Origin: a virus | DNA: 21,638 nucleotides | Reading direction: 5' to 3' (one strand) | Virus record (IMG/VR): IMGVR_UViG_3300021963_000750 | Location: 1 to 21,638 of that record | Part shown: positions 1-21,638 of the stretch, piece after piece | Layout of the letters: the number at the start of each line of letters is the position of its first letter | How positions within the stretch are numbered: position 1 is the first letter of the stretch | Position numbers and translations under genes: made by a program | Notes under the pieces: generated by a model | Database searches by the model: none | What the model saw: only the letters and a program-made list of their open reading frames with translations | What the model was told of the DNA's origin: nothing

Positions 1-950
1 CAGGTAATGTAGGTATTGGAACTACATTAGTTTCACCGACTACTAAACTACAGGTTGATGGTGATGTAACAGCAAGATTCTATTATGGAGATGGTAGAAA
101 TCTAACTAATATAGGTGGTGTCTCTATCTCCACAAATACCACCAACCAAGCACAATTAATTCCTTATGTGACTGGAACTGGTTCTACTGCAGGATTTGGT
201 GTAACCACTGGTGGATTAGTATTTAATCCTTCTACCACTAGACTTGGTATTGGAACCACAAATCCATCACAAACCCTACATATTCAAGGTAATACAAGAA
301 TTACTGGAGCACTCTTTGCTAGTGATATAAGTGGTATAAGTACAAGTGGAACTTCAGGTCAAGTATTGCAATCTGTTGGAACTGGTATTAGTTGGGTTAA
401 TTTCTCTGGTGGGGGTTCATTATCAATTTCTACAAATACCACCAACCAAGCACAATTAATTCCTTATGTGACTGGAACTGGTTCTACTGCAGGATTTGGT
501 GTAACCACTGGTGGATTAGTATTTAATCCTTCTACCACTAGACTTGGTATTGGAACCACAAATCCATCTTATAATCTACACGTAAATGGTTCCTTTGGTG
601 CAACTACAAAGTCATTCATTATTAATCACCCAACAAAAGAAGGTAAAAAACTTCAATATGGTTCATTAGAAAGTCCTTATCACGGAATTAGATTGACTGG
701 CTCTTCTACAATTAAAACTGGAAAGTGTATTGTTGAATTACCTGATTATATTCATACCTTTGTAAAAGAAGAGGGTATAAATATTCATATCACAAATGTC
801 AAACACGGAAAAGTTCTTTGGGTTGATGAAGTAAATATTACAAATAATAACTTTATTGTTAAGACTGAAGAAACTTCTGGAGAATATGATTTTTATTGGG
901 ACTTTACTGCGATTAGAAATGATGTTGAAGATATGGTTGTAGAGTTTTGA
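1..950 (+). CDS. Tail fibre-like structural protein, 3' part (5' end outside window)
   Basis: The reading frame is open from the window edge (first complete codon at position 3) to the TAA-type stop region at 948-950, so the gene begins upstream; the GTG at 168 is an internal codon. The visible part contains fibre-type repeats ending in GIGTTNPS followed by a 'LHV.G' strand, a motif common in phage fibres and S74-bearing proteins. One repeat of about 46 residues occurs twice, 100 residues apart. The last ~120 residues (FIINHPTKEGKKLQYGSLES, then a 'VELPDYIHTFV' segment) match a C-terminal domain I recognise from many phage fibre proteins. It probably forms part of a trimeric fibre or adhesin on the virion. 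Downstream genes on the same strand are also adhesin-like. The family assignment is from motif memory; the exact fibre cannot be named. Confidence 0.75.
   Translation, partial: GNVGIGTTLVSPTTKLQVDGDVTARFYYGDGRNLTNIGGVSISTNTTNQAQLIPYVTGTGSTAGFGVTTGGLVFNPSTTRLGIGTTNPSQTLHIQGNTRITGALFASDISGISTSGTSGQVLQSVGTGISWVNFSGGGSLSISTNTTNQAQLIPYVTGTGSTAGFGVTTGGLVFNPSTTRLGIGTTNPSYNLHVNGSFGATTKSFIINHPTKEGKKLQYGSLESPYHGIRLTGSSTIKTGKCIVELPDYIHTFVKEEGINIHITNVKHGKVLWVDEVNITNNNFIVKTEETSGEYDFYWDFTAIRNDVEDMVVEF
132..568 (+). repeat. 137-bp exact direct repeat inside the fibre gene (132-268 and 432-568)
   Basis: Positions 132-268 and 432-568 are identical base for base, offset by exactly 300 bp, so the repeat keeps the reading frame and encodes the same ~45 residues. 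Nucleotide identity, including synonymous positions, points to recent duplication or ongoing gene conversion rather than old protein repeats. Confidence 0.95.
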
Positions 951-983
951 TACTTATGAAAATAATTAAAGGAGGAAATTAAG

Positions 984-2195
984 TTGGCAACGCACTATAA
1001 TGTGAGAACGGTAACTGATGGATTAGTATTAGCACTTGATGCTGCGAACTCAAAAAGTTTTGATAGTGCTGAAAATTTACTTACTTATAGTGAGCAGTTT
1101 GATAATGCTGCATGGGATAAACAGTTTTCCACAGTTACCGCAAATTCGGTTGCTTCTCCTAATGGAACCACGACTGCAGATACCTTTACCGCATCGTCTA
1201 GTGCAGCATTTATTTATAGGGCATTCAGTGCTTCTGCTCAGACATATACTTTTTCGTGTTTTGCTAAAGCAGGAACTGCTACCAGTTTTAGATTAGATTT
1301 TGTTACTGCCTCTTATACACTTGGGTGTTCCTGCATTTTTGATTTAAGTGCAGGAACTGCAGGAACTGTGACCTTATATGGAAGTTCTACGGGATTTATT
1401 GCCTCCATACAAAATTTTTCTAATGGTTGGTATCGTTGTTCTATTTCGGGGACATCTACTGCAACAACGTGGTATCCTCAAATAACTTTAGTTAATAGCT
1501 CTGGAACTAATATTTACATCTGGGGGGCACAATTAGAAACAGGTTCAACGGCAAGTTCTTATTATGCAACAATAGCATCTATAAAAACACGAGGAACCAC
1601 CTGGACTGATTTGAGTGGTAATGGGAATAATGGAACACTAGTAAATGGACCGACTTATAATAGTTCTAATGGTGGGTCTTTGGTTTTTAATGGGAGTAGT
1701 CAATATGCAACTACACCAGCAATCAATCTTACTACTGCCGGAACTGTATCTGCTTGGTTTTATAAAACCGGCACAGGGACGCCTGACGGTGCTAATATAG
1801 TTGATATCTTTTCTAATGTATCCTCCAATGGAGCAAATGGTTGGTCATTTGCATTGAACACCAGTACAAATAAAATTGATTTTTACATTGCAAATAATGG
1901 TGGATTTGGTGTTGAAGATTTTTCTACTCAAACAATATCAAACAACACTTGGTACAACGTTTTCGTCACATATAATGGGTCAAATAAAATTATCTACATA
2001 AATGGTGTTCAAGATTCCACTTTTGCGAGCAGTGTTAATGGAAATGCAACAACAAATTGGAGTATCGGATCTAGAAACACAGGTGCTCGTAATTTTCAAG
2101 GAAATATCGCACAAGTCTCAATATACAACAGAGCACTCTCCACAGCAGAAGTCTCACAAAACTATAATGCTCTCAAAAGTCGTTATGGCATTTAA
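984..2195 (+). CDS. LamG-like adhesin with an extra N-terminal beta-sandwich module
   Basis: Starts at TTG 984, chosen because GGAGG at 971-975 lies 8 nt upstream and the translation (MATHYNVRTVTDGLVLALDA) aligns with the start of the paralogue at 2947. Of 403 residues, about 1-25 match the LamG paralogues. Residues ~31-196 (NLLTYSEQFDNAAWDK to IWGAQLETGSTASSYYATI) form a module often seen in phage fibre and spike proteins, probably carbohydrate-binding. Residues ~206-390 return to the LamG/concanavalin-like fold (TTWTDLSGNGNNGTLV, then FNGSSQYATTP). The C-terminus (IYNRALSTAEVSQNYNALKS) is shared with the next two genes. It likely binds glycans on the host surface or decorates the virion. 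LamG assignment is confident; the receptor is unknown. Confidence 0.8.
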   Translation: MATHYNVRTVTDGLVLALDAANSKSFDSAENLLTYSEQFDNAAWDKQFSTVTANSVASPNGTTTADTFTASSSAAFIYRAFSASAQTYTFSCFAKAGTATSFRLDFVTASYTLGCSCIFDLSAGTAGTVTLYGSSTGFIASIQNFSNGWYRCSISGTSTATTWYPQITLVNSSGTNIYIWGAQLETGSTASSYYATIASIKTRGTTWTDLSGNGNNGTLVNGPTYNSSNGGSLVFNGSSQYATTPAINLTTAGTVSAWFYKTGTGTPDGANIVDIFSNVSSNGANGWSFALNTSTNKIDFYIANNGGFGVEDFSTQTISNNTWYNVFVTYNGSNKIIYINGVQDSTFASSVNGNATTNWSIGSRNTGARNFQGNIAQVSIYNRALSTAEVSQNYNALKSRYGI

Positions 2196-3674
2196 AAGAG
2201 GTATAAACTAAAATGGGATGTTTTTCTGGTGTAGAATCAACTTGGGCATCACAACTAGATGTGGGAAGAACTCATATTGCAACCAAGGGAACGGTTCAAT
2301 CTGGATTAGTTCTGAATCTTGATGCTGGTGCTTCTAGTTCTTATTCTGGTATTGGAAACACTTGGACTGATTTGAGTGGTAGTGGAAATAATGGAACTCT
2401 TGTGGGTGGTGTGGGTTATGCTGCAACTAATGGGGGTTCTTTGACTTTTAATGGAAGTAGTCAGTATGTGTCGGGAAGCATAGCAACAATAAACAGTTGG
2501 TCTATGTGTTTATGGTATTTTTCTACTGATATTACATCTAAATCAGTTTTTTATACGTTTTCTGGAACAACAACTGCTACTGGTTTGGGTTTTGGCGGAA
2601 CATTTGATGCAAATACAAATAATAGATGGTATTTTTTAGATGGAACTAACATTTTTAGTAGCGCCAATACTGCAATAACAACTAATACTTGGTATTATCT
2701 TGTAGTTACCAAAAGTTCGACTACATATAATCTTTACACAAACGGTTCTCTATCATTGAATACTACTGGTGTAGATTTATCTTTAACTCAATATAATTTA
2801 GCAAGAAGAGGGAATGGAGAGTGGTATTCTAAAGGAAATATCGCCCAGGCATCAATATACAACAGAGCACTCTCCGCAGCAGAAGTCTCACAAAACTATA
2901 ATGCTCTCAAGAGTCGTTATGGCATTTAAAAGAGGTATAAACTAAAATGGCACTTATTCATAACACAAACTCAGTAACTTCAGGATTAGTATTAGCACTT
3001 GATGCTGCGAATCCTAAGTCATATGGGGGTTCTGGAAACACTTGGAGTGATTTGAGTGGTAATGGAAAAAATGGAACACTAGTAAATGGACCGACTTATA
3101 ATAGTGCGAATGGAGGTTCTTTAGTTTTTAATGGGACTAATCAGTATTCTAGTATTTTCGCACCTTCTCCTTTTTTGGGAACTTCACTATTTACTTTTGA
3201 AATTTGGGTAAATTTTACAAGTATTACTGGAAATTTTGGTGGTACAAATAAATCTGCATCTTTATTTAGTGGCGGAACAGGAACAGGAACTGGACAAGCG
3301 GAATTTTCAATATTATCTTTAAATAACACTTCTTTTACTCCAAATACTATTTCCTTTAGTCGGGGCGGTGGGGCAACTACTGGTAGCTTAAGCATCAACA
3401 TCTCTTCTTTGATATCTAATGGAAGTTGGTATCAAATTGTTTTGGTTCGTTCTACACTGAATTCGCAAACAGTATATTTAAATAGTTCTTCAATTGGAAT
3501 TGGAACTGTATCTAACAGTTTTTCGGACGGAACAACATCTTTTGGTGCTCTCCCCGGAAATACTTCTTTTTCTCAATACTTAAATGGAAGAATATCAAAT
3601 ATAAAAATATACAACAGAGCACTCTCCGCAGCAGAAGTCTCACAAAACTATAATGCTCTCAAGAGTCGTTATGG
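2121..3674 (+). repeat. Shared 3'-end and leader module of the LamG genes (2121-2216, 2855-2950, 3607-3674)
   Basis: A 96-bp stretch covering the last codons, stop, leader and ATG is repeated at 2121-2216 and 2855-2950 with two substitutions. Its first 68 bp recur at 3607-3674 and are identical to the second copy. These blocks could support homologous recombination between the three genes, swapping the variable middle parts. Confidence 0.93.
2213..2929 (+). CDS. LamG-like adhesin, second tandem paralogue
   Basis: A 238-residue protein beginning 17 bp after the preceding gene, with an AAGAGGT ribosome-binding sequence just upstream of the ATG. It has its own N-terminal extension (MGCFSGVESTWASQLDVGRT) before the shared core 'SGLVLNLDAG', then WTDLSGSGNNGTLVGG and a FNGSSQYV strand typical of LamG-like (Laminin_G_3-type) domains, ending in IYNRALSAAEVSQNYNALKS. 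It lacks the ~170-residue insert of the first paralogue. The last ~75 bp and the intergenic stretch repeat those of its upstream neighbour. Probable role: glycan-binding virion appendage. The N-terminal extension could attach it to a different partner than its neighbours; that is inference. Confidence 0.8.
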   Translation: MGCFSGVESTWASQLDVGRTHIATKGTVQSGLVLNLDAGASSSYSGIGNTWTDLSGSGNNGTLVGGVGYAATNGGSLTFNGSSQYVSGSIATINSWSMCLWYFSTDITSKSVFYTFSGTTTATGLGFGGTFDANTNNRWYFLDGTNIFSSANTAITTNTWYYLVVTKSSTTYNLYTNGSLSLNTTGVDLSLTQYNLARRGNGEWYSKGNIAQASIYNRALSAAEVSQNYNALKSRYGI

Positions 3675-3684
3675 TCTAATATAA
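2947..3684 (+). CDS. LamG-like adhesin, third tandem paralogue
   Basis: A 245-residue LamG-like protein. The N-terminus (SGLVLALDAANPKSYGGSGN) matches the first paralogue, followed by TWSDLSGNGKNGTLVNGPTY and a FNGTNQYS strand. The middle (~60-200) is unlike the other two, while the C-terminus (IYNRALSAAEVSQNYNALKS) is the same. The ATG lies within the repeated stretch shared with the 2213 gene, including the same AAGAGGTATAAACTAAA leader. The stop codon TAA (3682-3684) falls inside a TATAAATA late-promoter box for the next gene. Probable virion glycan-binding protein; receptor unknown. Confidence 0.8.
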   Translation: MALIHNTNSVTSGLVLALDAANPKSYGGSGNTWSDLSGNGKNGTLVNGPTYNSANGGSLVFNGTNQYSSIFAPSPFLGTSLFTFEIWVNFTSITGNFGGTNKSASLFSGGTGTGTGQAEFSILSLNNTSFTPNTISFSRGGGATTGSLSINISSLISNGSWYQIVLVRSTLNSQTVYLNSSSIGIGTVSNSFSDGTTSFGALPGNTSFSQYLNGRISNIKIYNRALSAAEVSQNYNALKSRYGLI

Positions 3685-3687
3685 ATA
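3680..3687 (+). promoter_or_regulatory. T4-type late promoter box TATAAATA
   Basis: Exact match to the T4 late consensus TATAAATA, 20 nt upstream of the ATG at 3708. It contains the stop codon of the preceding LamG gene (TAA 3682-3684). Confidence 0.65.
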
Positions 3688-3707
3688 CAAGAAAGGATAA
3701 TAAGTAA

Positions 3708-4730
3708 ATGGCACTAAATGACAAAAATTTAATTATCACTCCCAACATTGGATCAACTTCAGACCCTAGAATTGATTTTAGAGGTGCTGATTCTACATCT
3801 GGACCTAACATAATCTCCGCAGTAGCGTATCCAATTAATAGTGGAACATTAAGTTTTGAAGGTACTGCAGGTCAGTTATTTTCAATTACAAATAATCTAA
3901 CATCAGGTTCAATATTCTCTGTTAATGATGTTTCTGGAATTCCCAGTATTGATGTAAATGCAAACGGAACCGTAAGTATGGTGTCTTATGGCGGTAGTGT
4001 CGGTCTTGGACTTACTAATCCCACTAATCAACTGCATTTATCATTAGATTCTGCAAGAAAACCTACTACTACTGTTTGGACTAATACATCAGATGAAAGA
4101 ATTAAATTGGATATTGTTCCAGCAGATTTAGACATCTGTTATAATGTCGTTAAAACTTTACCTCTCAAATACTACAAGTGGAATGATGAGGTATATCCGC
4201 CCAATGTTACAAGAGATAGACATAAAATAGGATGGATTGCGCAGGATGTAGAGATGGTATTTCCTAAAGCAGTGAATCAATTTGAATTAAGATATAATAA
4301 AAAGACTTATGAAGATTATATAGTTCCTGCTGTTGAGGAAGTATTTGGTGTAGTAACTCCAGCACAACCAGAGCGCACCGAACAAAGAGAAATCACTACA
4401 TATGAAGATTATATAGTTCCTGCTGTTGAGGAAGTATTAGACGGCGAGGGCAATGTATTTACTCCAGCACAATCAGAACACACCGAACAAAGAGAAGTTA
4501 TTACATATGAAGATTATATAGTTCCTGCTGTGGAGGAAGTATTGGGTGTAATTACTCCAGCACAACCAGAGCGCACAGAACAAAGAGAAATTATTACTGA
4601 AGAAATCATTCCAGATTGTCGTGACCTGAATGTGGACCAGATATATGCAGTAATGTACGGAGCAATTCAGAAATTAATTAATAAGATTGAAACATTAGAA
4701 GAAGAAGTTAATACTCTTAAGAACTCATAA
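3708..4730 (+). CDS. Tail fibre/spike protein with C-terminal peptidase S74 chaperone domain
   Basis: A 340-residue protein. Residues ~1-118 form a fibre-type N-terminal part with the 'VGLGLTNPTNQLHL' motif. At residue ~127 it enters an intramolecular chaperone (peptidase S74) domain: TSDERIKLDI with S128 as the expected self-cleavage serine, then LPLKYYKW, RHKIGWIAQDVEMVFPKAV, and a C-terminal helix (QIYAVMYGAIQKLINKIE) followed by a short coiled coil. In this family the domain drives trimerisation of the fibre and is then cut off. Between the AQDV part and the final helix, residues ~200-296 hold three tandem repeats starting TYEDYIVPAVEEV, an unusual expansion. It probably forms or matures a host-recognition fibre. 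The start has a weak leader, AAAGGA, 16 nt upstream. S74 assignment is strong; cleavage itself is inferred. Confidence 0.85.
   Translation: MALNDKNLIITPNIGSTSDPRIDFRGADSTSGPNIISAVAYPINSGTLSFEGTAGQLFSITNNLTSGSIFSVNDVSGIPSIDVNANGTVSMVSYGGSVGLGLTNPTNQLHLSLDSARKPTTTVWTNTSDERIKLDIVPADLDICYNVVKTLPLKYYKWNDEVYPPNVTRDRHKIGWIAQDVEMVFPKAVNQFELRYNKKTYEDYIVPAVEEVFGVVTPAQPERTEQREITTYEDYIVPAVEEVLDGEGNVFTPAQSEHTEQREVITYEDYIVPAVEEVLGVITPAQPERTEQREIITEEIIPDCRDLNVDQIYAVMYGAIQKLINKIETLEEEVNTLKNS
4305..4595 (+). repeat. Three tandem 93-105 bp repeats inside the S74 domain
   Basis: Units begin at 4305, 4398 and 4503 (31, 35 and about 31 codons). Each encodes TYEDYIVPAVEEV, a short variable linker (GVV, DGEGNVF or GVI), then TPAQ[P/S]E[R/H]TEQRE. 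The middle unit carries a four-codon insertion. Most differences between units are single bases, so expansion looks recent. Confidence 0.93.
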
Positions 4731-4733
4731 ATA
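4726..4733 (+). promoter_or_regulatory. Late promoter-like box CATAAATA
   Basis: NATAAATA-type box overlapping the stop codon of the S74 gene (TAA 4728-4730) and ending 22 nt before the ATG at 4756. Spacing resembles that of the other late boxes in this window. Confidence 0.5.
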
Positions 4734-4755
4734 ATAGTAATAAAGTATAAAACTT

Positions 4756-5418
4756 ATGTCGTTTATTGCAGGAACTCGTGTAACTGGTGCAACTGGTGGA
4801 ACTATTTCTACTATTACTGGGTATAAAGTTCATATATTTGAAACTCCAGGAATTTCTACTTTTATTCCTAGTGGTAATGGAACTATTGAGGTTCTTGTAG
4901 TTGGTGGGGGTGGTGCTTATGGTGGCGCTCAAGGTGGAGGTGGAGGTGGTGGTAACGTTTTATATAATAAGTTTATAAATGTTACTTCAGGTACTTCTTA
5001 TCCAATTACTGTTGGTTCTGTCGGTGCTGCTGGTGGAATTGGCGGTATTAGTACTGCAGTCTTTAATAATGTAACAATAATCGCCTATGGTGGTGGAGGT
5101 GGGGGAGTTGGTGGAATTGCTCCTGGAATTTCAAGTTCATTTGCTTCTGGCGGTGGTGGTGGCCGTAGTGGTGGTGCTGGTGGTGTTGGGGCAGGAATTA
5201 CTGGTCTTGGATTTTCCGGTGGCAGTAGCGGTTCTAGTTTTGGTGGCGGAGGTGGTGGTGCCGGTGGTGCCGGTGTACCCGATGGAGGTGGTGGTGGTAT
5301 AGGAGTATCTTATAGTATCACCGGAACTTCCCAATATTATGGTGGTGGGCAGGGTAGTGTATCATCATACGGAACGGGAAACACACCAGGCGCAGTAATC
5401 ATAAGATACCCTTCATAA
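4756..5418 (+). CDS. Glycine-rich adhesin-like protein, first of three tandem paralogues
   Basis: A 220-residue protein. The N-terminal ~50 residues (TISTITGYKVHIFETPGIST, then NGTIEVLVVGGGG) are the beta-sandwich start typical of phage glycine-rich domain proteins. Long Gly runs (~51-190) are broken by hydrophobic segments such as YNKFINVTSGTSYPITVG, and the protein ends GVSYSITGTSQYYGGG and AVIIRYPS. This pattern resembles polyglycine-helix adhesins such as the gp38 tips of some T4-like phages, where loops between Gly helices contact the receptor. That function is inferred from the pattern. Long antisense open frames here are a by-product of GGT/GGC repeats. No clear Shine-Dalgarno is seen. 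Confidence 0.75.
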   Translation: MSFIAGTRVTGATGGTISTITGYKVHIFETPGISTFIPSGNGTIEVLVVGGGGAYGGAQGGGGGGGNVLYNKFINVTSGTSYPITVGSVGAAGGIGGISTAVFNNVTIIAYGGGGGGVGGIAPGISSSFASGGGGGRSGGAGGVGAGITGLGFSGGSSGSSFGGGGGGAGGAGVPDGGGGGIGVSYSITGTSQYYGGGQGSVSSYGTGNTPGAVIIRYPS

Positions 5419-5421
5419 ATA
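5414..5421 (+). promoter_or_regulatory. Late promoter-like box CATAAATA
   Basis: Overlaps the stop codon (TAA 5416-5418) of the first glycine-rich gene and lies 14 nt before the ATG at 5436. The next gene junction (6049-6056) has only the weaker CCTAAATA. Confidence 0.45.
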
Positions 5422-5435
5422 TACAAAAAACTAAT

Positions 5436-6053
5436 ATGACTCTAAATATAGGACAAAGAACAACATCAGCAACTGGCGGAACTATCTCCACGATTTCTGG
5501 TTATACCGTTCATACATTTACATCTGGTGGGAATTTTGTTCCTAGTGGAAGTGGAACCATTGAGGTTCTTGTAGTTGGGGGAGGTGGTGGTCCAAGTTAT
5601 CCAGGTTATGCATCTGGAGGTGGTGGTGGTGCCGTTATCTATAATAAGTTTGTAAATGTAACTTCAGGTAATCCTTATCCAATTAATGTTGGTTCCGGTG
5701 GTGCAACTTTTACTAATGGTGGTATTAGTAGTTGTACCTTTAATAATGCTACGATAATTGCTTATGGTGGAGGTGGTGGTTCCGGTGCTCCTAATATTGG
5801 AAATCCAAGTCCAAATGCTTCTGGTGGTGCAGGTCCTACTCCTGGTGTAGGGGCAGGAGTTACTGGTTATGGATTTCCAGGAGGCCTTGGTGGAGGAGGT
5901 TATGGTGGTGGTGCTGGTGGACCTGGAGCATCTGGAGGTATAGGAGTATCTTATAGTATCACCGGAACTTCTCAATATTATGGTGCTGGTCCTTTCTGGG
6001 GTTCTGCCCCTCCAGGAACCCCAGGCGCAGTAATCATAAGATATCCAACCTAA
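5436..6053 (+). CDS. Glycine-rich adhesin-like protein, second paralogue
   Basis: A 205-residue paralogue of the neighbouring genes: TISTISGYTVHTFTSGGNFV, then GTIEVLVVGGGG, a Gly/Ser/Pro-rich middle and the shared end GVSYSITGTSQYYGAGPF and AVIIRYPT. It is the shortest of the trio; its middle differs in the number and content of Gly blocks (TPGVGAGVTGYGFPGGLGGG). The gene starts 17 bp after its neighbour. Probable surface or tip adhesin on the virion, by analogy with polyglycine adhesins. Which structure it attaches to is not visible from sequence. Confidence 0.75.
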   Translation: MTLNIGQRTTSATGGTISTISGYTVHTFTSGGNFVPSGSGTIEVLVVGGGGGPSYPGYASGGGGGAVIYNKFVNVTSGNPYPINVGSGGATFTNGGISSCTFNNATIIAYGGGGGSGAPNIGNPSPNASGGAGPTPGVGAGVTGYGFPGGLGGGGYGGGAGGPGASGGIGVSYSITGTSQYYGAGPFWGSAPPGTPGAVIIRYPT

Positions 6054-6070
6054 ATATATAAAAAAAAGAT

Positions 6071-6754
6071 ATGTCTATTTTAGTAGGTCCCGTAACATTA
6101 TCAGCAACTGGTGGAACTATTTCCAGTATTACGGGTTATATAGTTCATACATTTTCAACTCCAGGAGTTTCTACCTTTATTCCCAGTCAAAACGGAACCA
6201 TTGAGGTTCTTGTAGTTGGTGGGGGTGGTAATGGATCTGCTGGTGGGGGTGGTGCTGTTGTCTATAATAAATTTGTGAATGTAACTTCAGGTACTCCTTA
6301 TCCAATTACTGTTGGTCCTTCAGGTTCACCAACCGGGGGATTTAGTAGTTGCACTTTTAATAACTCCACAATAATTGCATATGGTGGTGGGGCATATGGT
6401 AACTATTACGATGGAAATCCTGGTCCGAATGCTTCTGGTGCTGCTGCTGGTAATGGGGGTGGTAATGGTGGAACTGGAGCAGGAGTTACTGGACTTGGAT
6501 TTCCTGGTGGTTTTCAACAACCTGGGGGATATGGTCAACCTGCTGGTGGGGGTGGAGCAAGTTCTGCTGGTAGTAATGGATTTCCTGGTGGAACTGGTAA
6601 TGGGGGCATAGGAGTATCTTATAGTATCACAGGAACTTCCCAATATTATGGTGGTGGTGGCGGTAGGGGTGCCCCGAATGGTGGACTAACTCCGACATCA
6701 TATGGAACTGGTAATGGAACCCCAGGCGCAGTAATTATCAGATACCCAGTATAA
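6071..6754 (+). CDS. Glycine-rich adhesin-like protein, third paralogue
   Basis: A 227-residue member of the trio. N-terminus TISSITGYIVHTFSTPGVST and GTIEVLVVGGGG, Gly-rich centre with Asn/Ala-rich loops (NASGAAAGNGGGNGGTG; GFQQPGGYGQPAGGGG), and C-terminus GVSYSITGTSQYYGGGGG then AVIIRYPV. The shared beginning and end with variable loops fit a receptor-contacting scaffold whose loops vary between copies. The gene is spaced 17 bp from its predecessor and followed 6 bp later by the coiled-coil gene. Function is inferred. Confidence 0.75.
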   Translation: MSILVGPVTLSATGGTISSITGYIVHTFSTPGVSTFIPSQNGTIEVLVVGGGGNGSAGGGGAVVYNKFVNVTSGTPYPITVGPSGSPTGGFSSCTFNNSTIIAYGGGAYGNYYDGNPGPNASGAAAGNGGGNGGTGAGVTGLGFPGGFQQPGGYGQPAGGGGASSAGSNGFPGGTGNGGIGVSYSITGTSQYYGGGGGRGAPNGGLTPTSYGTGNGTPGAVIIRYPV

Positions 6755-6760
6755 AAAAAT

Positions 6761-7228
6761 ATGGAAAACACAGAATATCTTTGGTACGAACCAACAACTT
6801 CTTGGAAAACTCAAGAAGAAATCAATCAATATGAATTAGAACTGATTCAACAACAACAAGAACTTGAAAGACAACAACAAGAAGAACTTGAAAGACAAGA
6901 ATTAGAACTCATTCAACAACAAGAAGAACTAGAAAGACAAAGACAACAAGAAATATATGAATATCAACTTCCAAGAGTGTATGCTCTTGTGGGAGAAGAT
7001 GGAGTAATTCAAAACACAATTCTTGCAAGTCGTGAGTTTATGAATACAAAGCCTTATGGTGATACAATTTGTATAGAAAATACAGATGAAGTCAAGAATG
7101 AACCAGGAATTGGTAGAAATTATGATGAAACACTCAATGCCTTTATTGAACCAAAACCTTATCCTTCTTGGATTCTAAATACAGAAACTGGTAAATGGGA
7201 AGCACCCGTACCAAAACCCACAACTTGA
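6761..7228 (+). CDS. Gln/Glu-rich coiled-coil protein with fibre-accessory C-terminus
   Basis: A 155-residue protein. Residues ~18-68 are almost only Gln, Glu, Leu, Ile and Arg, with two copies of an ELELIQQQ-type unit ending LERQ, predicting a long charged helix or coiled coil. Residues ~70-155 form a small domain: VYALVGEDGVIQNTILAS, then PGIGRNYDETLNAFIEPKPY and PSWILNTETGKWEAPVP. I recognise this end from small phage proteins encoded next to tail fibre genes, where 'PYPSW' and 'W.AP.P' recur. It may act as a fibre-assembly or connector protein. It starts 6 bp after the third glycine-rich gene, without a clear ribosome-binding site, suggesting translational coupling. Confidence 0.65.
   Translation: MENTEYLWYEPTTSWKTQEEINQYELELIQQQQELERQQQEELERQELELIQQQEELERQRQQEIYEYQLPRVYALVGEDGVIQNTILASREFMNTKPYGDTICIENTDEVKNEPGIGRNYDETLNAFIEPKPYPSWILNTETGKWEAPVPKPTT
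6811..6955 (+). repeat. Low-complexity CAA/GAA-rich coiled-coil repeat
   Basis: Imperfect repeats of GAATTAGAACT-ATTCAACAACAA and CTTGAAAGACAACAA units encode Gln/Glu/Arg heptad-like segments. Such tracts can change length by replication slippage. Confidence 0.75.
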
Positions 7229-17289: not shown

Positions 17290-17871
17290 TTAATTTTGTA
17301 TTAATTTCCGATATGGGACTGATCTCAATGTTGCAAATTCCTGTTGACTCAATTCATATAACCCACTAACTAATCGATCACCATCTGCCGTATTATATTG
17401 TCTAATTTTTCCAAGATGATAATTAAATCCCAGAAATCCTTTTGGTAACATATCTCCTGCCAGAATCAGTGGATGTTGATCATAAAGAATTTTTGGAGTT
17501 TTGGCATAATAAATGTAGGTATAGTATCTTCCCTGTAATGGATATGCACTTTCAGTTCCACTTAATATTGACATAATTTCATTCATTAATCTATCCGGTT
17601 TTTCAGTTCCGTTTAATGATTTTTTGAAATCGCTAAAACGATTCGTAAGTATCTTCCCATCAATTCTTCTGGGTGCTTTTGGATTTTTACTAATATAATC
17701 ACGATCATTTTTAATGATACTGATCAATTGTTCTTTTTTTAATCTCTTATATCCACCGGTTGATCCTTTTCCACTGGCAGTTGTATAATAAATTGTGTGA
17801 AATTCTGCAATCTCAATTAATTCATCTTTTGTATAATCTCCTAATGGTTTTTCATATCCCGTGAGTGCCAT
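17290..17871 (-). CDS. Unknown protein between gp48 and the GIY-YIG gene
   Basis: A 193-residue protein. Residues ~10-62 (GDYTKDELIEIAEFHTIYYT, then GGYKRLKKEQLISIIKNDRD) could form a SAP/Rho-N-like helical pair. Residues ~110-190 form a second part with GRYYTYIYYAKTPKILYDQH, 'PLILAGDMLPKGFLGFNYHL' and RSVPYRKLIQN. I recall similar C-terminal segments in small structural or accessory proteins of cyanophages but cannot assign a role. The ATG overlaps the stop of the GIY-YIG gene (TAATG). Place in a baseplate operon suggests a virion or assembly function. Confidence 0.6.
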   Translation of the reverse strand: MALTGYEKPLGDYTKDELIEIAEFHTIYYTTASGKGSTGGYKRLKKEQLISIIKNDRDYISKNPKAPRRIDGKILTNRFSDFKKSLNGTEKPDRLMNEIMSILSGTESAYPLQGRYYTYIYYAKTPKILYDQHPLILAGDMLPKGFLGFNYHLGKIRQYNTADGDRLVSGLYELSQQEFATLRSVPYRKLIQN

Positions 17872-18515
17872 TATTTTATCCTAATAAATTTTCCACCTTG
17901 TTTAAGGATATAGTATCTAGAAAGTCCTGTTTTTTCCATAGTTTCAGTCATAGATGCATATACATTCCCATTATAAAGAACTGGTTTCCGATTACTACTT
18001 GGTCGTCCTTTCATAATTTTACTATGTCTTTTATGTTTTTCTTTATCAGTTCTATTTCTTTCCGCCATTTTTTTTAAATTTTCAGTATAGTAATACGTTG
18101 GTCTTGGATTATTTTTTAATTTTTCTTTCCAAGTATTTGATATTTTTTGTTTTACTTCTTCTGGGAGTTTTTTCCCTTTCAAACTTATTTTATTTGCTGC
18201 ACCTATTTTTGCTCTAACTTCTGGTCTTTTTGTTGGACTATCATTACCACACATTTTGGGAGGAGCATTACCACCATCAGCAATATTCATTAAAATTCCA
18301 GTTTCATCACATTTTTTACCAAACACAGCAATCATATAGATTTCGTGTTTGAATGCTTCTTCTTCTGTTAGATTTTGTTTGAGTTTTATTATTTTACTTT
18401 TGTCTTTTGGTGGAATACAATTTTTACCTCTATGATCGTATAATCTATTTCCCTTACCTTTACCGATATAGTATGGAGTTTTATCTTCTCTTAAATATGC
18501 ATAAGTATAAAACAT
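17871..18515 (-). CDS. GIY-YIG homing-type endonuclease (first copy)
   Basis: A 214-residue protein with the GIY-YIG nuclease domain at ~2-95: [20 protein letters not shown] (Y and YIG-type residues), NRLYDHRGK, and [19 protein letters not shown] with the catalytic Glu. The C-terminal half has basic, NUMOD-like DNA-binding segments (KKLPEEVKQKISNTWKEK; HSKIMKGRPSSNRKPVLYNG) and an IENR1-like helix pair (ASMTETMEKTGLSRYYILKQ). Free-standing enzymes of this kind cut a phage genome lacking the gene and so spread by repair. It lies between gene 4 and the unknown gene, with a GATAAATA box overlapping the gene 4 stop. It resembles the second GIY-YIG gene at 20859-21494 in its first ~90 residues but not after. 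Confidence 0.9.
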   Translation of the reverse strand: MFYTYAYLREDKTPYYIGKGKGNRLYDHRGKNCIPPKDKSKIIKLKQNLTEEEAFKHEIYMIAVFGKKCDETGILMNIADGGNAPPKMCGNDSPTKRPEVRAKIGAANKISLKGKKLPEEVKQKISNTWKEKLKNNPRPTYYYTENLKKMAERNRTDKEKHKRHSKIMKGRPSSNRKPVLYNGNVYASMTETMEKTGLSRYYILKQGGKFIRIK

Positions 18516-19965: not shown

Positions 19966-20694
19966 ATGCCTTTACCTAAAATTGCTACACCACAATATAC
20001 TCTTGATTTGCCATCAACAGGAAAAACTATCAAATATCGCCCATTTTTAGTCAAAGAAGAAAAAATACTTATTCTTGCTCTTGAAAGTGAAGATGTGAAA
20101 CAAATTACATCGGCAATCAAACAAATTTTAAAGGATTGTATTATTACGAAAGGTATTAAGGTAGAAGAACTTCCTACTTTTGATATTGAATATATCTTTC
20201 TAAATGTTCGTGGACATTCCGTTGGTGAAGCAATTGAACTGATTGTAACTTGTAGTGATGATGGAACAACCGAAGTTCCAGTTAAGATTTATATTGACGA
20301 AATTCAAGTTCAAAAAGACCCAAATCACTCTACTGATATTAATTTGGGTGATGGATTGGTGTTAAGAATGAAGTATCCATCTTTGAACGAATTTATCAAG
20401 AATAACTTTGATTTTAGTTCAAATGATGTTTCTTCTATTGAAAAGTCATTTGATATTGTTTCTTCTTGTATTGATATAGTCTTTAATGCCGATGAATCTT
20501 GGGCGGCAGCAGATTGTACCAAAAAAGAACTTAATGATTGGATTGAGACTTTGACTTCACAACAGTTCCAAGAAGTAGAAAAGTTTTTCAATACGATGCC
20601 TAAACTTGCACACACTTTCAAAGTGACTAATCCAAATACAGAAAAAGAAAGTGAAGTTACGTTGGAGGGATTGACAAGTTTTTTCGGTTCATAA
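19966..20694 (+). CDS. 26: Baseplate hub protein gp26
   Basis: A 242-residue protein matching the T4 gp26/T4 baseplate family: 'MPLPKIATPQYTLDLPSTGK', 'YRPFLVKEEKILILALESED', AIKQILKDCI, 'PTFDIEYIFLNVRGHSVGEA' and a C-terminal TFKVTNPNTEKESEVTLEGL. In T4, gp26 takes part in hub assembly with gp51. The next gene starts on its stop codon (TAATG), so gp26 and gp51 are translationally coupled, in agreement with a joint role. Confidence 0.9.
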   Translation: MPLPKIATPQYTLDLPSTGKTIKYRPFLVKEEKILILALESEDVKQITSAIKQILKDCIITKGIKVEELPTFDIEYIFLNVRGHSVGEAIELIVTCSDDGTTEVPVKIYIDEIQVQKDPNHSTDINLGDGLVLRMKYPSLNEFIKNNFDFSSNDVSSIEKSFDIVSSCIDIVFNADESWAAADCTKKELNDWIETLTSQQFQEVEKFFNTMPKLAHTFKVTNPNTEKESEVTLEGLTSFFGS

Positions 20695-20867
20695 TGGCTC
20701 ATATGGATCTTGAGTCATATTTTAAAATCAATTTCTCTTTGATGACACATTATCATTGGTCACTAAATGACATTAATGATATGATTCCCTGGGAACGGGA
20801 CATCTACCTGGCATTATTAAATCAGTTTGTAGAAGAAGAAAACTTAAAGGCACAACAGTCAAGTTAA
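20694..20867 (+). CDS. 51: Baseplate hub assembly protein gp51 (C-terminus altered by insertion)
   Basis: A 57-residue protein starting on the gp26 stop (TAATG): [40 protein letters not shown] and a tail ending NLKAQQSS before TAA 20867. The pattern 'W.L..I..M.PWER.IY...L' fits small cyanophage gp51 proteins that follow gp26. T4 gp51 is longer. The last codons overlap the antisense 3' end of the second GIY-YIG gene by 9 bp, and the 27 bp encoding ~EEENLKAQQ reappear at 21610-21636 in an open frame, so the original C-terminus likely lies beyond the cassette. The last two residues may come from the insertion. Confidence 0.8.
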
Positions 20868-21494
20868 AATATTATTTTTATTTGAGTTTTCAACTTTTAT
20901 AATATCTTTATGTTTTTTTCTTTTTCCTGTATAAAGACAGTAAATATTACCAACACTATAACCATTTTCTTTTGCCCAAGTACTCAATCCACACAATATA
21001 ATCACATTTCCATTTGCAAAGGTGAGTTTCCACCATTTAGATGAATGGTGTTTCTCGCCTTTGATTGCTTCGCTCTTTTTTCTTCTGGTTTCTTGTGAGG
21101 CAGATTTTCCATAATTGTGATTTTTGTCTCCCTTCTGAGCATCACTTATTTTTATTTTATGTTCTTTTGAAAGAACTTTATTTTTATTTTTTCTTCTTAA
21201 ATTTTCTTTGAATTCTAAAGAACGAACAGCACCACTTGCACCATCTCCTCCATTAGTTCTATTATGGAGAATACCAGTTCCTAAATCTTTCCTACCAAAG
21301 ACAGCAATCATATAGACTTCGTGCTTAAATGCTTCTTCTTCGGTTAAGTTGTTTTTAAGTATTAGTATTCTTGATTTATCTTTTGGTGGTTTGGTGCCCT
21401 TATATCTTCTTCCGTATGCCCTATTGTCTTTACCTTTTCCTATGTAATAAGGTGTTCTATCTTCACGCAAATATGCGTAAGTATAATAAATCAT
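20859..21494 (-). CDS. GIY-YIG homing-type endonuclease (second copy)
   Basis: ATG 21494 is preferred to 21515 because it matches the start of the first GIY-YIG gene (M-[I/F][10 protein letters not shown]) and lies 24 nt after a perfect late box. The 211-residue protein has [20 protein letters not shown], '[10 protein letters not shown]', [20 protein letters not shown] and [14 protein letters not shown], covering the GIY, YIG and catalytic Glu regions. The C-terminal part contains NUMOD3-like repeats ([34 protein letters not shown]) and a helix-turn-helix-like end ([20 protein letters not shown]). It is antisense to gene 51 and overlaps its last 9 bp. Probable free-standing homing enzyme specific for gene 51. 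Confidence 0.9.
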
Positions 21495-21518
21495 TTTTAC
21501 TCTAATAGACGGCATTAG

Positions 21519-21526
21519 TATTTATA
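21519..21526 (-). promoter_or_regulatory. T4-type late promoter box TATAAATA for the second GIY-YIG gene
   Basis: Minus strand reads TATAAATA, 24 nt before the ATG at 21494; nearly the same spacing as for the first GIY-YIG gene. Confidence 0.65.
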
Positions 21527-21553
21527 TTAAAAAGGAGGGATTTTCACCCTCCT
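21527..21553 (-). terminator. Minus-strand intrinsic terminator upstream of the endonuclease
   Basis: On the minus strand AGGAGGG (21553-21547), a 7-nt loop, CCCTCCT (21539-21533) and then T's (21532-21529). It would stop minus-strand transcription arriving from beyond the window before the endonuclease promoter. Confidence 0.6.
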
Positions 21554-21580
21554 CCTGAAGATTGCCGTCTATCAGGTATT

Positions 21581-21603
21581 AATATTTATGGGGCATAAAT
21601 ATT
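21581..21603. promoter_or_regulatory. Palindrome of two back-to-back CATAAATA late boxes
   Basis: AATATTTATG (21581-21590), GGG, CATAAATATT (21594-21603). The plus-strand box 21594-21601 points to the second gene 51 copy; the minus-strand box 21590-21583 points to the endonuclease. Confidence 0.6.
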
Positions 21604-21638
21604 CTTGACAGAAGAAGAAAACTTAAAGGCACAACAAA

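Follow-up and report, generated by a model that had tools for sequence, protein, structure and literature searches.

The gp51 locus at the right end of the window

The DNA considered here, 21,638 bp in length and referred to as the window, makes up an entire linear IMG/VR record (IMGVR_UViG_3300021963_000750) of a T4-like cyanophage. At its right end, the baseplate gene gp51 is followed by an antisense homing endonuclease gene (HEG), and the end of gp51 is found twice, as an exact 27-bp repeat (AGAAGAAGAAAACTTAAAGGCACAACA) at 20831-20857 and 21610-21636. The initial annotation had described this repeat behind an antisense GIY-YIG gene, a terminator and promoters; the layout is confirmed in the window and recurs in relatives. 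Comparison with alleles that lack the cassette ("empty" alleles) shows that gp51 is kept complete by the upstream tail, while the native tail has a late promoter on one side and the next gene's start on the other. The features of the locus are:

19966-20694, plus strand: gp26-like baseplate hub gene, upstream of gp51 (PHROG baseplate hub, E 9e-79); source of the phage tree
20694-20867, plus strand: gp51, the target gene; intact, the SS and stop at its end being new (PHROG "baseplate hub assembly catalyst", E 1e-24)
20754-20780, plus strand: cassette-linked gp51 block HWSLNDIND ((K)YSLTEIE(N/G) in empty alleles), presumed cleavage or recognition site in an altered, immune form
20831-20857, plus strand: upstream (left) copy of the gp51 tail, exact repeat
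20858-20867, plus strand: cassette-derived gp51 end GTCAAGTTAA, common to the cassettes L086-L088 and not found in the empty L001
20859-21515, minus strand: GIY-YIG/NUMOD3 HEG, the stop codon of which overlaps the gp51 end
21610-21638, plus strand: downstream (right) copy, the native gp51 end, cut off by the record end; 28/28 identical to the empty L001 from the first GAA

Normally, the right copy continues to a stop codon that overlaps the ATG of the next gene. Here the record stops 2 bp past the second repeat copy, and the window alone therefore could not exclude an artefact. That gp51 is nearly full length with a new end was correctly predicted, as was its being split by the cassette. The left boundary first given to the cassette did not hold, since the element reaches into the block at 20754-20780.

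Carrier and empty alleles

Via HEG similarity, 16 distinct carrier loci of gp51 were found (the window, L039, L084, L086-L093, L171, L172, L188, L021 and L031). They derive from metagenomic contigs, and the tails to be compared measure only 24-72 nt. All 16 have the second copy of the gp51 tail. Among 137 cassette-free gp51 genes, no second tail was present at the start of the next gene; relatives with both copies but without the endonuclease, which had been named as evidence against an insertion, were not among them. In the 15 other carriers the contig continues past the second tail into the next gene, and the tail runs to a stop codon that overlaps or adjoins the start of that gene. Their HEGs are 59-83% identical to that of the window, with the exception of L188 (48%). 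The HEG is antisense in most carriers; in L021 and L031 it has the orientation of gp51, with a reading frame that continues through the second tail.

In a tree of the gp26 region the carriers are scattered, with 8 changes of state, at least 7 of them forced by supported branches. The region upstream in the window is 98% identical to the empty L001. The element is sporadically present at one site, shared with some close relatives and absent from others, as is typical of free-standing GIY-YIG HEGs.

Native and foreign gene ends

The empty loci L001-L004 end in AAGGCACAACAAA(G/A)TAATGGTTAG, and the gp51 product of empty alleles ends in AQQ(S/N)NG. The second copy of the window, being identical to the end of these relatives, is therefore the original 3' end, as the initial annotation had supposed.

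More telling are loci where the two copies have diverged. In L039, the downstream copy is identical (39/39) to the gp51 end of the empty L275, with an identity that extends into the next gene; the upstream copy differs from it. The downstream copy of L091 is identical (36/36) to the cultured phage S-SRM01, which is devoid of the cassette. L039 and L084 have one upstream tail in common; their downstream tails differ, and each fits its own next gene.

The gene of a tail lysozyme is a second target, where the arrangement shows even more clearly. Before the last 24 codons, L233 and L241 are 88-89% identical to the HEG-less DSL-LC02, DSL-LC03, S-SRM01 and L177; within these codons, the identity drops to 56-62%. 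The foreign lysozyme tails of L233, L241 and L244 are 81-86% alike among themselves; compared with HEG-less relatives, the remnants downstream in L233 and L244 show 81-93% identity. Taken together, the tail comparisons at the two genes reveal an upstream end supplied by the donor and a native downstream end. This combination, which is characteristic of certain mobile elements of fungal mitochondria, was seen at L039/L275, L091/S-SRM01, L233 and L244. In the window itself, tail replacement is only partly visible: its upstream tail became, or stayed, native up to CAACA, and only the final GTCAAGTTAA is of the cassette type.

Downstream of the lysozyme cassette, L244 also contains Rfam matches to an abiF RNA and a group I intron (3880-4141).

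A linked block inside gp51

Some 50-75 bp upstream of the tail, a block within gp51 separates carriers from empty alleles. Codon 22 (20757-20759) specifies Trp in 14/16 carriers and Tyr in all 138 empty alleles having the motif (Fisher 4.6e-18). A strong link to the carrier state exists for codons 28-29 as well; of the two carriers with Tyr, L039 is altered at both of these codons and L188 at codon 29 only. The window and the empty L001 are identical, or nearly so, on both flanks of the block, and in ten carrier/empty pairs the mismatches peak there. On the gp26 tree, the presence of Trp goes with that of the cassette in 6.4 of 7 independent pairs, and the reverse never occurs. A CNNNG cleavage motif, also considered for the block, proved only weakly informative. 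Judged from these sequence associations, the block is likely the target of the enzyme, altered in carriers.

Promoters, stem and probable leader

The promoters of the cassette had been recognized from the start; what had been missed is the coupling of the second tail copy to a late promoter. The regulatory features are:

21505-21514, minus strand: 3' arm of an outer stem, upstream of the HEG start (covariation)
21519-21526, minus strand: late promoter TATAAATA for the HEG, in the outer loop just before the 3' arm
21534-21552, minus strand: intrinsic terminator, a G+C-rich hairpin followed by a U-run, within the outer loop
21563-21572, minus strand: 5' arm of the outer stem
21583-21590, minus strand: second late-promoter-like CATAAATA, upstream of the outer stem
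21594-21601, plus strand: late promoter CATAAATA toward the next gene, 9 nt before the tail copy

The late promoters, some with CTAAATA, are of the cyanophage type NATAAATA (PMC2984593). Such a promoter (NNTAAATA) precedes the right copy in 16/16 carriers, irrespective of HEG orientation; the distance is 8-10 nt in 15 of them, and only L093 deviates, with 6 nt. None of the 137 empty alleles has one within the 20 nt preceding the tail. Given this position, the late transcript of the next gene probably has the displaced native tail as its leader. The right copy of L093 has suffered an in-frame deletion of 15 nt, which implies that the native remnant tolerates loss. A conserved mini-ORF starting with TTG or ATG in the right copy (window, L039, L084, L087, L088, L188) was considered and discarded as a general feature, since it is missing in others, e.g., L090 and L091.

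The outer stem is supported by covariation. Seven of nine pairs have changed on both sides and 90% of the cells are paired; the score is 0.493 versus 0.167 upon shuffling and was attained in 0/500 shuffles. The stem, which encloses the terminator hairpin and TATAAATA, folds well (z -6.4, -7.2 and -3.9), and the same unit precedes the HEG at L230, L233 and L244. By analogy with I-TevI of phage T4, stem, terminator and internal TATAAATA probably hold HEG expression to late infection.

The endonuclease and its family

The HEG product of the window contains a NUMOD3 repeat (Pfam E 9e-13) and matches the PHROG "homing endonuclease" (E 1e-12). Eleven homologues share an invariant YTYAxLRE..PYYIGKG plus R and E residues; a Pfam search of the HEG yielded no GIY-YIG match above cut-off. 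A GIY-YIG-type domain combined with NUMOD-like DNA-binding repeats, the hallmark of free-standing GIY-YIG HEGs, is thus present. The structure model has a pLDDT of 69 and gave a weak fold match only, to I-HmuI (E 0.048).

Bracketing repeats are not a universal trait of this family. Among 131 distinct HEG relatives (40-83% identity), they were seen only in the gp51 set, at the lysozyme loci and in L230, L189, L187 and L185; most relatives are therefore ordinary. In L230, nearly identical repeats of about 67 bp (191-260 and 924-990), which represent the end of the upstream gene (..TPLNYIRDRIIEWFPN and stop), flank an HEG of this family; L230 is a probable third target. The repeats in L189 (2452-2500/3259-3307), L187 (2444-2486/3263-3306) and L185 (2347-2381/3312-3346) comprise 35-49 bp; that of L189 is the terminator region after the upstream gene, and that of L185 resembles part of the downstream gene.

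Between gp53-like and gp4-like genes, the window harbours another GIY-YIG HEG of this family (17871-18515, minus strand), with 44% identity to the first. A homologue (76%) occupies the corresponding position in S-SRM01. At this second HEG of the window, no duplicated tail was found bracketing the gene. Elsewhere, the left third of the window (1-6950) displays many diverged internal repeats, glycine-rich segments among them, and a Pistol ribozyme match at 17602-17643 (minus strand) stays below threshold (24.3 vs 34.5 bits) and is probably due to chance.

Proposed mechanism and alternatives

We favour, with a probability of about three in four, a mobile free-standing HEG cassette that brings along a cut-proof gp51 3' end and turns the native end into a leader for the gene that follows. 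It could thereby spread without disrupting gp51. The enzyme would cut empty gp51 alleles within the block coding for KYSLTEIEN and would spare carriers owing to their altered block. Double-strand-break repair would then copy the donor from upstream of the block through the gp51 3' end with its stop, the HEG and the late promoter, and the copied DNA would rejoin the recipient at the recipient's own native 3' end. The displaced native tail could thereafter serve the next gene as leader and initiation region. Later recombination may render the two tails alike again, as in the window.

Some observations do not fit this mechanism smoothly. The cut site is deduced from the association of the altered block with carriers, and the leader role of the right copy is likewise indirect, L093 having lost 15 nt of it. 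Both tails of the window are native over 27 bp, and replacement is visible there only in the last codons. KN-type tails occur in some native lineages as well (S-SRM01). Confidence in the GIY-YIG model is low (pLDDT 69), and the results of structure searches were weak. Finally, the copies within a locus are more alike than expected (19.9 vs 18.25 of 24, p 1e-4). Homogenisation is thus likely, yet this likeness points either to homogenisation or to repeated local duplication.

The latter process would mean that each lineage duplicated its own gp51 tail in tandem and kept it as initiation region of the next gene, without any foreign tail. The greater similarity of copies within than between loci and the nearly identical pairs of the window, L086, L089 and L090 would be explained. 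The single upstream tail with differing downstream tails in L039 and L084 would not, the lysozyme tails are clearly foreign, and nearly all gp51 loci have in common the HEG family, the promoter spacing and the altered block; we consider local duplication unlikely. Even less can be said for a transposon-like insertion, as envisaged in the initial annotation; HEG DNA would have entered gp51, and 27 bp of the target would have been duplicated during repair of staggered ends. Both copies of the window do match the empty allele over 27 bp. In L039, L091, L233 and L244, however, the downstream copy alone matches the empty site, and the upstream one differs and is cassette-linked. The repeat length varies from about 24 to 72 nt, so that two copies of the empty site at fixed length, as expected from a transposon, are not what is found; moreover, GIY-YIG enzymes leave 2-nt 3' extensions (PMC2988022). 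The transposon-like footprint had to be abandoned as improbable.

A group I intron or trans-splicing element, with the copies as exon pieces, comes to mind because HEGs of this kind often reside in introns, and an Intron_gpI match exists elsewhere on L244. Yet gp51 has its own stop ahead of the insert, the HEG is antisense at most loci, and an Rfam search of the cassettes tested revealed neither an intron nor a conserved catalytic core around the HEG; the idea is very improbable. An assembly artefact, the 27-bp repeat joining unrelated contigs, had been taken as the main alternative in view of the record's ending 2 bp behind the repeat. It is practically ruled out by 15 further distinct loci, the contigs of which show the same layout and extend into the next gene.

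As to the broader picture, we lean towards the view that a whole family of home-and-rescue drives exists naturally in T4-like cyanophages. These would be HEG modules that have a regulated 5' unit in common and insert at the ends of several genes (gp51, tail lysozyme and one or more others). Every insertion would bring a cut-proof foreign 3' end of the target together with an altered cut site; at gp51, it would also provide the displaced neighbour with a new late promoter.

Comparison with known systems

To our knowledge, an HEG faced with an essential gene and lacking a splicing element usually sits between genes instead. Here a phage HEG would settle at the gene end and mend the damage with its own copy, as described earlier for fungal mitochondria, and it would also rewire the expression of a neighbouring gene. 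Homing, cut-site immunity and tail rescue are open to direct test, as there are many alleles with and without the cassette, some of them in near-identical pairs (e.g., window/L001 and L039/L275).

The closest parallel is offered by the mobile endonuclease ORFs with C-terminal duplication in fungal mitochondria (Allomyces atp6; Glomus atp6, atp9, cox2 and nad3; PMC3630166). There, too, the end of a donor gene is fused in phase to the resident gene, the endonuclease ORF follows, the native end persists downstream, foreign and native ends diverge, and the atp9 element is also GIY-YIG. In contrast to the gp51 cassette, these ORFs reside in an organelle, some of the ends are much longer, and there is no late promoter and no leader of a next gene; the part of the article considered here reports no cassette-linked altered cut-site block. 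The resemblance is one of arrangement only.

The T4 HEGs of the seg type (segA-segG; PMC2988022) are similar in being GIY-YIG genes between conserved genes, with a presumed cut site in the neighbour gene away from the insertion point and a carrier allele presumed to be resistant. According to the review, however, they are placed between genes, and it makes no mention of a duplicated gene end (the stem "duplicat" appears nowhere in its text). A hairpin before the start codon and a late promoter that lets late transcripts escape it are known from T4 I-TevI, segB and Aeh1 mobE (PMC2988022); unlike these, the gp51 cassette also holds a terminator in the loop, and its divergent late promoter serves the displaced neighbour gene. 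With the engineered home-and-rescue drive HomeR (PMC7968924), it shares the principle of a homing element that sits in an essential gene and restores it. The gp51 cassette, however, is natural and phage-borne and recombines with co-infecting genomes, its function being deduced.

In the literature searched, which left out most subscription journals, no phage case of a duplicated target-gene end was found. Given the fungal-type arrangement and an enzyme of the T4 HEG type, for which the review knows no duplicated end, the gp51 cassette may be filed under the free-standing phage HEGs as a new variety, apparently of a kind known from fungal mitochondria and, as far as that literature goes, undescribed in phages.
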